A stretch of 20,164 nt of DNA, from positions 1-20,164 of IMG/VR virus record IMGVR_UViG_3300009790_000108, one strand, 5' to 3'. The notes beneath the pieces were generated by a model. It had not been told where the DNA came from and did not search any database. It saw nothing but the letters and a program-made list of their open reading frames with translations. The position numbers and the translations under genes were made by a program. Positions within the stretch are counted from its first letter, which is position 1. The number at the start of each line of letters is the position of its first letter. This document shows, piece by piece, positions 5,297-9,571 of this stretch. The stretch is from a virus.

Positions 5297-5323
5297 AAAA
5301 GTTCACTAAAACGAACGAAAATA

Positions 5324-5380
5324 GTTGATAAGTTCGGTTTATGGGTAAATACTAAGCACCGTAAACCGAACTTAACCAAC
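5324..5380. promoter_or_regulatory. Inverted repeat with possible promoter upstream of the accessory block
   Basis: In the 97-bp gap after the gpF-like gene, TAAGTTCGGTTTA (5329-5341) is matched by a perfect 13-bp inverted copy at 5362-5374. The match extends to GTTG/CAAC at the outer ends with one extra base on the right arm. The 20-base loop and absence of a T-run argue against a simple terminator. A TTGATA at 5325-5330 with TAAATA or AATACT 15-17 bases downstream could be a weak promoter inside the repeat. This would make the site an operator for the genes starting at 5394. The repeat is seen directly, and its function is inferred. Confidence 0.5.
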
Positions 5381-5393
5381 AAGGCCAACCGAA

Positions 5394-6932: not shown

Positions 6933-7370
6933 ATGAATACTTCAAGCGTACATTTCAGCCCAAGAGAAAAGCAGGTTTACGACTTGATGATAACAGGCGT
7001 AAGACAGAGAGTTATCGCTCAGGAAGTTGGAATATCAGTTAGAACAACTAAATTCTACTATTCATCTATTTTCAAGAAACTTGGCGTTCATTCATCCCGT
7101 GAAGTAGTGGCGAAGCACTACATGAAATTAAATGCTATTAAAGAAAATCGCACACCAGGCATAGAATTGCTATCTAAAGCCGAGCGCCGTGTTTATGACC
7201 AAGCCGTTACAGGAGTTAGCAGAAAAGAAATAGCTTCAAGGCTTTTTCGTTCAGAAAGCACGGTTATATTTCACTTGAAAAATATAAGCAAAAAACTAGG
7301 AGGCGTCTCAATGCTTGAAATGGTGATTTCTCGCTACAGGGAAAATGAAAGTCATTTTAATGCAATGTAA
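6933..7370 (+). CDS. Tandem double LuxR-type HTH protein without sensor domain
   Basis: A 145-residue protein built from two copies of a LuxR/GerE-type helix-turn-helix. The first spans about residues 8-65 (FSPREKQVYDLMITG, then IAQEVGISVRTTKFYYSSIFKKLGV). The second spans about 79-136 (LLSKAERRVYDQAVTG, then IASRLFRSESTVIFHLKNISKKLGG). The repeats are offset by about 71 residues. No autoinducer, receiver or other sensory domain is present. It is probably a DNA-binding regulator in which the second copy supplies the dimer partner within one chain. GGAG at 6924-6927 precedes the ATG. Terminators flank the gene on both sides, as in a moron-type insert. Targets are unknown, and the inverted repeat at 5324-5380 is one candidate. 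Confidence 0.88.
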   Translation: MNTSSVHFSPREKQVYDLMITGVRQRVIAQEVGISVRTTKFYYSSIFKKLGVHSSREVVAKHYMKLNAIKENRTPGIELLSKAERRVYDQAVTGVSRKEIASRLFRSESTVIFHLKNISKKLGGVSMLEMVISRYRENESHFNAM

Positions 7371-7971: not shown

Positions 7972-7994
7972 AGGCCTCATACGAGGCCTTTTTT
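7972..7994 (+). terminator. Intrinsic terminator between convergent genes
   Basis: AGGCCTC (7972-7978), loop ATAC, GAGGCCT (7983-7989) and T residues to 7994. The perfect 7-bp stem lies between the rightward lipoprotein stop (7964) and the leftward stop at 7994. The T-run favours rightward termination. The reverse side has only a weak T-rich flank, so leftward function is less certain. Confidence 0.85.
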
Positions 7995-8278
7995 CATTTC
8001 ATCAACTCGGCTTTACGAGATATCCGAGGATCTAATCCTACGGCCACAACAGCTTTGTATTTCATGACCTCCTTTCTCGCTTCTGCCAAGGTCATTACCG
8101 GATATCGACCAAGCGTCATTTTAATCCTCTGACCTGACTTAAGACGTGGGCGAAATATAAAACTGATTGCGCCATTTCTCAGCCTGGCCTCAAGCCCGCC
8201 ACCATCGGATTTTGTTATTTCCTTTTCCAGTTCCACGCCGGAGTAGCGTCGCAGCCATGTATCAGTCAGCCTGTTCAT
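7994..8278 (-). CDS. Stand-alone integrase arm-type DNA-binding domain protein
   Basis: A 94-residue protein matching the N-terminal arm-binding domain (DUF4102 type) of P4-like tyrosine integrases. It shows LTDTWLRRYSG, then SDGGGLEARLRNGAISFIFRPR, then MTLGRYPVMTLAEARKEV and GLDPR. In integrases this domain binds arm-type sites, and the core-binding and catalytic domains follow. Here the protein ends after the arm domain with a proper TGA/TAG-free close and no catalytic remnant downstream. It therefore looks like a genuine short DNA-binding protein rather than decay in progress. It overlaps the antirepressor gene by ATGA, so translation is probably coupled. The role could be regulatory or accessory to recombination. 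No integrase is seen in the window. Confidence 0.8.
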   Translation of the reverse strand: MNRLTDTWLRRYSGVELEKEITKSDGGGLEARLRNGAISFIFRPRLKSGQRIKMTLGRYPVMTLAEARKEVMKYKAVVAVGLDPRISRKAELMK

Positions 8279-9009
8279 GACTTGTCCTCCAGAATCATCC
8301 TGTTTGTGGGCAGCTTCAGCATGTCGAACAAAGCGCTAAGCCCTTTCCCGGTAATACATGGCTTAGGGAAAAAGTTACCCTCCGTTTTATCGTGAACGAG
8401 GTTTAACTCCATATAACCAAGCTTGATCGCGTACTGATATGGCGTGAAATCACGCCGCAGCCATTTCATCTTAAACAAAAAGGCATCAAGCTTACGTGGG
8501 CCACACCCTAGAAGCTTCGCAGCCGTAGAGAGCGATACAGCGCCATTTGCGCCCCTGAGTGCTTCTGCGAACTCAGCGTCACTTTGGTGAAGGGATAGCT
8601 GCTCTCGAAGCTTCTCGTTTTCCTCCTCGGCATCCATCGCCAGCTTCAAGATCTCACGACGTGATAACTCAGGCATATGGTTGGTGTGCAACCGGCCAGC
8701 GCGATAATCAAGGAACACCTGATTGACCTTCAACTGAAAGGCTGGGCTTATCCAGCCAGCATAGCTGATCGCCAGCAGTTCGTGGGCGTAGGTGCCGGGG
8801 GATGATCCACCTTTCGTAACGCTAAGTACCTCAAAGGCAGAATTCTGCCTTAGCTCATTCACCAGATCTTGAGCCTGTTTTGTGTTAAGCCATGTTTTTG
8901 GCCGCTTGGAATCTCTGCCGCCACTAGCCTTATGCAGCGCATTCAGATTAAAGCGCCCCTGATCATCGGTGTTTACGGGCACACCAGCCACTACGGGTAA
9001 ATTGTTCAT
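8275..9009 (-). CDS. ant: KilA-N / ANT domain phage antirepressor
   Basis: A 244-residue protein with an N-terminal KilA-N domain (about 1-110: GRFNLNALHKASGG, then KTWLNTKQAQDLVNEL, GGSSPGTYAHELLAISYAGWISPAFQLKVNQVFLDYR). A coiled-coil linker follows (about 118-145: AEEENEKLREQLSLHQ), then a C-terminal ANT/KilAC domain (about 150-240: VSLSTAAKLLG and KPCITGKGL). Such proteins inactivate phage repressors and promote lytic growth. An AGGAGG ribosome-binding site (9015-9020) overlaps the stop of the upstream leftward gene, and CACTAG beside it is complementary to part of the C4-like RNA at 9375-9451. This fits C4-type antisense control as in phage P1. The gene name is by family and not by orthology. 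Confidence 0.88.
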   Translation of the reverse strand: MNNLPVVAGVPVNTDDQGRFNLNALHKASGGRDSKRPKTWLNTKQAQDLVNELRQNSAFEVLSVTKGGSSPGTYAHELLAISYAGWISPAFQLKVNQVFLDYRAGRLHTNHMPELSRREILKLAMDAEEENEKLREQLSLHQSDAEFAEALRGANGAVSLSTAAKLLGCGPRKLDAFLFKMKWLRRDFTPYQYAIKLGYMELNLVHDKTEGNFFPKPCITGKGLSALFDMLKLPTNRMILEDKS

Positions 9010-9018
9010 GACGGCCTC

Positions 9019-9330
9019 CTAGTGCAGATCGCCAGAGAGCGCAAGGCCAACAGTCATCAGACGGTTGATACAGACGTTTGTTAACTCCAGTAGTGCGTCA
9101 AGCTGTAGCCGATATTCTTCAGCTGTGTCGAGTAAATCGAAAACGGTATCTGGGTCTTTAGCGCATTGTGAAAGTAGTTCTTCGCCGGACAGGGTGAGCA
9201 GTTGCAAGGTCGCAATGCGATTAGCTTTATGCTCACTGGCCGTCATTTCGCGGCGATACAGGTCGTTAAGCGTGATTTCAGGCTTAAATGATAATGCGCT
9301 AAGGCTGCGCGATGTGGTTGTGTTAGTCAT
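9019..9330 (-). CDS. Hypothetical protein between C4-like RNA and antirepressor (icd position)
   Basis: A 103-residue, mostly helical acidic protein (ITLNDLYRREMTASEHKANRIATLQLLTLSG, then DPDTVFDLLDTAEEYRLQLDALLELTNVCINRL). No family is recognised. GGAG (revcomp of 9337-9340) gives a good ribosome-binding site, and its flank TCATACGGAGT is complementary to the C4-like RNA over 11 consecutive pairs counting G-U wobbles. The stop overlaps the ribosome-binding site of the antirepressor gene, so blocking this gene could block the antirepressor too. Position corresponds to icd in the P1 c4-icd-ant operon, but sequence similarity to Icd is not claimed. Confidence 0.7.
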   Translation of the reverse strand: MTNTTTSRSLSALSFKPEITLNDLYRREMTASEHKANRIATLQLLTLSGEELLSQCAKDPDTVFDLLDTAEEYRLQLDALLELTNVCINRLMTVGLALSGDLH

Positions 9331-9374
9331 GATTGACTCCGTATGATATTAGAAATTTGCCACTTTTAGATGGT

Positions 9375-9451
9375 GGCGGGTCTCACTAGAGCTCATACGA
9401 AACTCGGGCCTATTCCCCTTGCGGGTCTTATATTACGCCTCTCAACCCGCC
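9375..9451 (-). ncRNA. C4-like antisense RNA upstream of the antirepressor operon
   Basis: On the minus strand the region starts GGCGGGTTGAGAGGCG and ends GAGACCCGCC, so the ends pair (9445-9451 with 9375-9381) and enclose 77 nt, the length known for P1 C4 RNA. An internal AGACCCGC copy (9421-9428) repeats the terminal one (9376-9383), so the 5' GCGGGT can pair with either, giving alternative folds. A segment (revcomp of 9393-9403) pairs with the ribosome-binding site of the gene starting at 9330. CTAGTG (revcomp of 9384-9389) pairs with CACTAG at the antirepressor ribosome-binding site. Location ahead of a KilA-N/ANT gene matches C4 RNAs of P1/P7 and related prophages. Exact ends are inferred. 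Confidence 0.75.
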
Positions 9452-9485: not shown

Positions 9486-9504
9486 AAAAAAACCGCAAGG
9501 TTTT
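9486..9504 (-). terminator. Terminator-like or attenuator hairpin in the leftward leader
   Basis: On the minus strand, AAAACC, loop TTGC, GGTTTT followed by further T residues forms a 6-bp stem with a T-run, located between the leftward promoter candidates and the C4-like RNA. The stem is A/T-rich, so termination may be partial. It may act as an attenuator or help define the 5' side of the antisense RNA. Confidence 0.45.
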
Positions 9505-9542
9505 CGGATGCGGCTGGCCGCGTATGATGTCTAGTGTTTTCA

Positions 9543-9571
9543 ACATTAGTCCCTTCGAAATTGGTTTGCAA
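9543..9571 (-). promoter_or_regulatory. Candidate leftward promoter for the C4-antirepressor operon
   Basis: On the minus strand TTGCAA (9566-9571), a 17-base spacer and TAATGT (9543-9548) form a reasonable sigma70 promoter. It would start transcription near 9535, upstream of the C4-like RNA. No experimental support. Confidence 0.45.

Follow-up and report, generated by a model that had tools for sequence, protein, structure and literature searches.

A minus-strand locus in the window, the 20,164-base virus record analysed here, is very probably a self-contained silencing module of the C4/CI type in a Mu-like temperate phage, as judged from its sequence. A putative small RNA homologous to sRNA-Xcc1 (Rfam RF02221) was found at this locus, with two antisense segments complementary to targets in its own leader and, for one of them, to the ribosome-binding site (RBS) of the next gene. 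Changes in the loop are matched by changes in the targets, both in a close relative and family-wide.

Organization of the minus-strand module

The plus strand of the window carries Mu-like terminase, portal, capsid and tail genes. Between Mu-like genes of that strand, the minus strand bears the RNA, a gene for a 103-aa protein, a gene for a KilA-like protein and a gene for a 94-aa arm-type domain. Listed from the 5′ end of the minus strand, the features are:

9543-9571, minus strand: sequence resembling a promoter, TTGCAA-17 nt-TAATGT, which immediately precedes the leader target (detected by visual inspection and with a regular expression)
9531-9536, minus strand: leader target a1, CACTAG, perfect complement of antisense segment a′
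9521-9527, minus strand: leader target b1, TCATACG, perfect complement of the loop segment b′
9510-9521, minus strand: predicted antiterminator hairpin GCGG-CCAG-CCGC
9486-9513, minus strand: predicted intrinsic terminator CCGCA...TTGCGG-TTTTTTT
9375-9451, minus strand: putative C4-type antisense RNA of the sRNA-Xcc1 family, RF02221 (Rfam alignment 9451-9367)
9393-9399, minus strand: antisense segment b′, CGTATGA, located in the second hairpin's loop (complement of 9527-9521 and 9346-9340)
9384-9389, minus strand: antisense segment a′, CTAGTG, flanked by the second hairpin and the closing stem (complement of 9536-9531)
9350-9355, minus strand: possible weak a2 site, TTTCTA, with three Watson-Crick pairs and two more in the predicted duplex, and one break
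9340-9346, minus strand: RBS target b2, TCATACG, complement of loop b′, abutting the SD sequence GGAG of the 103-aa gene
9019-9330, minus strand: 103-aa protein without family assignment, in the position of P1 icd
8275-9009, minus strand: KilA-like protein with KilA-N and ANT/KilAC domains (Pfam E 2.8e-21 and 2.2e-14)
7994-8278, minus strand: 94-aa stand-alone integrase-type arm DNA-binding domain (Arm-DNA-bind_3, E 6e-18)

The 103-aa protein had no match in Pfam, PHROG or phage records, and a homologue was found in one viral contig only (L245, 87% identical). Because the stop codon of its gene overlaps the SD sequence of the KilA-like gene, the two may be translationally coupled. The original prediction had called the next gene an antirepressor gene; its KilA-like product is a full-length homologue of P1/P7 KilA (42% identity over 94%), not of P1 Ant, and its KilA-N and ANT domains fit the controlled gene of an antirepressor operon. 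A sequence search revealed no relatives of it among solved structures. The KilA-like proteins of the window (8275-9009) and of L246 (3001-3741) are 58% identical, with the first ~25 residues near-identical, although the phages are otherwise close; this pattern suggests that domains were exchanged along with a change in RNA specificity. The gene for the arm domain overlaps the end of the KilA-like gene; this domain, without a catalytic domain, is kept in the relative phage contig.

Elsewhere in the window, the small product encoded at 6933-7370 (plus strand) of this Mu-like phage has two helix-turn-helix domains of the LuxR/GerE type, and positions 5318-5386 form a long intergenic inverted repeat, probably a terminator or other hairpin. 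An animal microRNA model matched this repeat, a chance family assignment; the mir-190 and rox1 matches were discarded as chance.

The RNA is a divergent sRNA-Xcc1 homologue

The predicted 77-nt region with GGCGGGT/ACCCGCC ends is present at 9451-9375 of the minus strand. With the Rfam covariance model RF02221 it was aligned over the full length (1-87) at 47.5 bits (E 8e-6), below the curated cut-off of 53 bits; the closest relative, L245, scored 59.2 bits and the homologues in Stx phages 65-74 bits. The latter pass the cut-off, are ~80% identical to the window RNA at the DNA level and lie upstream of antirepressor genes. The core of the accepted members, UAAUA-AA-ACCCGNAAGGGGAAUA, is present in the window RNA, which by these scores is a divergent sRNA-Xcc1 homologue just under the cut-off.

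The original prediction had called the RNA C4-like and proposed a search with the C4 model, the lack of a match to count against it. That search gave no match at the cut-off (RF01695, 14.3 bits with a cut-off of 45), the best match being RF02221; the family name is therefore lost, but the mechanism is not. The RNAs of P1 (C4) and N15 scored 68.8 and 78.8 bits with the C4 model and gave no match to RF02221, and none of the RF02221 loci checked matched C4. In the Stx phages vB_EcoP_phi296 and PPwrbA_EH2201 (records L003 and L004), RF02221 loci are accompanied by a separate true C4 locus at another position. Since both are carried by some Stx phages, the two families are distinct and coexist. In PPwrbA_EH2201, two RF02221 RNAs with different loops lie 0.5 kb apart.

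As in C4-type RNAs, there are two antisense segments, b′ in a hairpin loop and a′ beside it, as seen from the covariance structure lines and the pairings. In the family-wide analysis, the segment pairing with the RBS had a higher predicted accessibility than the average of the RNA (0.64 versus 0.47 unpaired). The fold of the window RNA is not unusually stable (z -1.05). When 207 RNAs were aligned with MAFFT, misalignment of the variable regions precluded a usable consensus structure, so the structure rests on Rfam's model. The core ATANAANACCCGNAAGGGGAA (window 9430-9409, minus strand) is extremely conserved across proteobacterial phages, though it is not a pairing segment. Identity with RNA 24B_1 of phage Phi24B (PMC4426718) was considered and dismissed, since that RNA is located in the lom region and is a different hairpin.

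In EHEC EDL933, a discrete and abundant 89-nt sRNA-Xcc1 homologue has been recorded (40,293 reads, low ribosomal coverage value; PMC5331693); its locus was not at the published coordinate in the RefSeq assembly, and the paper probably uses another assembly. In Northern blots, sRNA-Xcc1 gave a band of ~100 nt (PMC2996969).

Complementarity to the leader and the first RBS

The leader sequence CACTAG-ACA-TCATACG (9536-9521), missed in the original prediction, pairs with both antisense segments in antiparallel order, giving the a1/b1 target pair of a C4-type system. The duplex was calculated at -21.8 kcal/mol, a value equalled by 0.3% of 40-nt windows. Upon shuffling, the two-part pattern was expected 0.00 times per window, and its only other match was the RNA's own complement.

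At the RBS of the 103-aa gene, the b target abuts the SD sequence, also as in C4-type systems (TCATACG|GAG at 9346-9337). Pairing over 11 positions between GUUUCGUAUGA (9403-9393) and UCAUACGGAGU (9346-9336) was found as predicted, with three G-U wobbles rather than the four claimed; it consists of seven perfect pairs (CGUAUGA/UCAUACG) and 4 weaker ones. On the minus strand of the whole window TCATACG occurs only twice, at this RBS and in the leader. The duplex energy of -13.7 kcal/mol is not unusual by itself, as 22% of 40-nt windows are as good; the match is significant because of its position, its covariation and the family-wide test, not its energy.

A predicted terminator switch in the leader

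The promoter-like sequence was not called by a consensus promoter scan; its counterpart at this position in L245 is TTGCAA-17 nt-TATTTT. Downstream of b1, folding predicted two alternative hairpins. The antiterminator had a pair probability of 0.98 in the free leader and 0.07 with a1/b1 blocked, the terminator 0.02 and 0.82, respectively. The latter was not found by a consensus scan, the loop limit of which is 8 nt. The same switch is predicted for the L245 leader.

In many family leaders, b1 is followed by GCGG-N-CCGC and then by an alternative CCGC...GCGG-T-run. The antiterminator motif GCGG-N-CCGC was present in 81 of 135 leaders versus 6.4 in shuffles, and a T-run follows the leader target in 133 of 150. 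When a1/b1 were blocked in 94 family leaders, the predicted terminator went up in 42 and down in 8. By this crude model the terminator switch is plausible but not universal: roughly half of the family leaders lack it or show the reverse, and attenuation may thus not be general across the family.

Loop and targets change together

In L245, the core, the leader hairpins and the genes are otherwise close to those of the window. Its loop reads CUUGUAGA (antisense part CTTGTAGA), its RBS TCTACAAG|GAG and its leader AACTAAAATTCTACAAG; leader and RBS both carry TCTACAAG against loop CTTGTAGA, so that three sites have changed together relative to the window. Cognate duplexes at leader/RBS were calculated at -21.8/-13.7 kcal/mol for the window and -24.7/-21.1 kcal/mol for L245. 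The swapped duplexes were weaker, -12.8/-7.8 kcal/mol for the L245 RNA on the window sites and -7.7/-10.3 kcal/mol for the window RNA on the L245 sites.

Three loops in E. coli prophages, CTTTGAAG, CTTATTTG and CTTAACTG, each have an exact complement in their own leader and RBS, and these RNAs lie upstream of an AntA/AntB or Rha-type gene. In two further E. coli loci of Rac-like context with ydaE and recE (L280, also with kilR, and L281), an unannotated leader-plus-RNA relative is located upstream of a truncated Rha gene. Of 5426 complete E. coli genomes, 339 had a match at the DNA level to the module region of the window.

For the family-wide test, loci were taken from viral and genome collections by the conserved-core pattern only, without the variable loop or the target, and gave 164 distinct variable regions and a stricter set of 135 dissimilar loci. 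For the 164 RNAs, a perfect complement of at least 7 nt was detected in 91.5% of cognate versus 26% of non-cognate leaders and in 68% versus 10% of RBS regions before the start codon; in coding controls the values were 8.5% and 9%. For the 135 loci, the score for two colinear segments was 14.15 versus 7.55 in leaders (z 28) and 10.36 versus 4.98 in the 5′UTR before the gene (z 19.8), with z of 2.5 and 1.4 in two downstream controls. The RBS matches cluster with their end 8-12 nt before the start codon.

Genes downstream of RF02221 RNAs

Pfam analysis of 90 distinct first genes, in which a protein may have several matches, gave Bro-N (18), P22_AR_C (16), Rha (12), AntA (9), P22_AR_N (9), KilA-N (9), ORF6N (8) and SymE (1). 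The genes downstream of these RNAs are thus mostly of phage antirepressor types and also include the SymE toxin. In X. arboricola (L168), the symE RBS CTCGAAG faces loop CTTCGAG; in Lysobacter (L180), the symE RBS CTCTAGGA faces loop TCCTAGAG. The same RNA-leader-RBS arrangement was seen at the SymE-type genes of L168, L180, L249 and L251. On sequence grounds, the RNA appears to be an antitoxin of SymE-type toxins that lies upstream on the same strand, unlike the overlapping SymR. Members of the symE type are among the best RF02221 matches (89-92 bits), which agrees with the finding of sRNA-Xcc1 upstream of symE in integron cassettes (PMC12444791).

Copies of the sRNA-Xcc1 type were present in each of the 35 Xanthomonas genomes searched, 1-13 per genome (L249-L278 among the loci). 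Among the best copies, the majority are followed by short genes without assigned function and have no RBS site but a co-varying leader site; at xanthomonad copies before such genes, an RBS match was found in 1 of 23 and leader complementarity in 23 of 23. In near-identical copies, loop and leader change together. Since pairing in the leader persists without pairing at the RBS, the two target functions are separable.

Proposed mechanism and alternative explanations

We propose that one transcript starts just upstream of the leader and runs through a1, b1 and the antiterminator/terminator region, the ~77-nt RNA and the 103-aa gene into the KilA-like gene. The RNA would be cut out of the transcript or accumulate as a stable species. 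Its b′ and a′ segments would pair in trans with a1/b1 of newly made leaders, breaking the antiterminator and favouring termination before the genes. In read-through mRNA, the RNA would pair with the RBS of the first gene and block its translation, and translation of the KilA-like gene would be blocked as well through coupling. Joint change of the loop and both sites would create a new specificity, as in P1/P7 heteroimmunity.

The original prediction held that one RNA silences two genes by direct pairing at both ribosome-binding sites. The match of CTAGTG (9389-9384) with CACTAG at the RBS of the KilA-like gene (9024-9019) does exist, at -16.7 kcal/mol, but it is not specific: 5.6% of random windows equal it, the L245 RNA binds this site equally well (-16.9 kcal/mol), and the window RNA binds the corresponding L245 site better than L245's own RNA does, showing no cognate preference. 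In addition, CTAGTG has a perfect, specific and far better partner in the leader (a1). Direct silencing of the second gene is hence rather improbable, and control of the KilA-like gene through the first gene and through termination is more likely. A cis role of the leader site, as a decoy or processing element whose a1/b1 pairs with a′/b′ of the same transcript and masks or matures the RNA, must be taken more seriously, though we think it unlikely: leader and RNA lie ~110 nt apart on what is presumably one transcript, their complementarity fits cis pairing equally well, and the predicted gain of terminator is not universal, but in many leaders the target abuts the antiterminator GCGG and in most it is followed by a T-run, as for an attenuator, and the CI RNA of P4 is a reported precedent for trans pairing that causes termination (cited in PMC4825925).

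It might also be argued that sRNA-Xcc1-type RNAs, that of the window included, are general trans regulators of host genes and that local complementarity is a by-product. This agrees with the description of sRNA-Xcc1 as trans-acting and under HrpG/HrpX control (Chen et al. 2011, as cited in PMC12444791) and with host targets predicted for the Xylella homologues (PMC12189769). It is very unlikely in view of cognate leader and RBS complementarity far above non-cognate with flat controls, and of near-identical Xanthomonas copies in which different loops go with correspondingly different leaders. Finally, the RBS pairing is short and of ordinary energy, as would be expected of chance complementarity around an unrelated hairpin; such an origin is hardly conceivable given the Rfam E value, the expected count of 0.00 for the two-part leader pattern and the family statistics, and is already refuted by the three-way covariation with L245.

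Significance for the sRNA-Xcc1 family

Homologues of sRNA-Xcc1 have been annotated in EHEC, Xylella and Xanthomonas, and roles in virulence or in the targeting of host genes have been discussed for them, whereas the sequence evidence places the targets of the family within ~150 nt, in the own leader and at the RBS of the next gene, an arrangement that recurs across hundreds of relatives. It is likely that sRNA-Xcc1 represents a second class of C4/CI-type RNA that silences its own operon by leader attenuation and RBS occlusion, controlling antirepressors and the SymE toxins of integron cassettes, with leader attenuation alone in some multicopy Xanthomonas lineages. An RNA family of unassigned function would thereby be linked to phage immunity and SymE toxin control, and the data suggest that the sequence of an 8-nt loop reveals the immunity specificity of Stx phages and other lambdoid phages. 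The mechanism itself is known from the C4, CA and CI RNAs; that RF02221 follows it appears to be new. Among the open-access papers searched, none was found that gives sRNA-Xcc1 a cis target or a link to C4, and priority is not certain.

Comparison with known systems

The Xanthomonas sRNA-Xcc1 is the best covariance match of the window RNA and has the same core and structure, with relatives of the same target layout, including those upstream of symE; unlike our reading of the window, it was published as a virulence-associated trans-acting sRNA. IsrK of Gifsy-1 (RF01394; PMC4825925) is likewise encoded in a prophage, directly ahead of a small ORF to which an antirepressor-like gene is coupled, but it is reported to activate translation of orf45 (PMC4825925), and the window RNA scored 11.4 bits with its model, with only the terminator tail in common. 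The CA RNA of N15 is a small RNA upstream of small ORFs that represses an antirepressor gene (Ravin et al. 1999, as cited in PMC10732415); it differs from the window RNA in matching the C4 model (78.8 bits) and not RF02221. In satellite phage P4, the processed CI RNA (seqA/seqC) pairs upstream and downstream and causes premature termination, according to PMC4825925; the window RNA belongs to a different family, and downstream it pairs with a ribosome-binding site.

The closest parallel in layout is P1/P7 C4 (RF01695, with leader c4-a1b1, RF03163), where the a1-b1 leader, the RNA, a2-b2, a small ORF and the regulator gene follow in this order; the annotated order in P1 (a1, b1, C4, a2, b2, icd) is the same as in the window, where a2 is a possible weak site. 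The original prediction had invoked the immI logic of P1, and this holds for the adjacent antisense segments, the RNA within its own transcript and the target at the first RBS, but not for direct silencing at the second. Besides the low score of the window RNA with the C4 model, two differences were noted: the first hairpin of C4 is replaced by the long conserved core UAAUANAANACCCGNAAGGGGAAUA, and the controlled gene is KilA-like, not Ant. In both systems, the RNA has a closing stem and two hairpins; b′ is in the loop of the second hairpin, which a′ separates from the closing stem, and b2 lies at the RBS of the first gene. The leaders are alike as well, b1 of P1 running into GCGG-ACAA-CCGC and then a terminator (TTAGTGCGG-ACAA-CCGCA...TTGCGGTATTTTT), as in the window.
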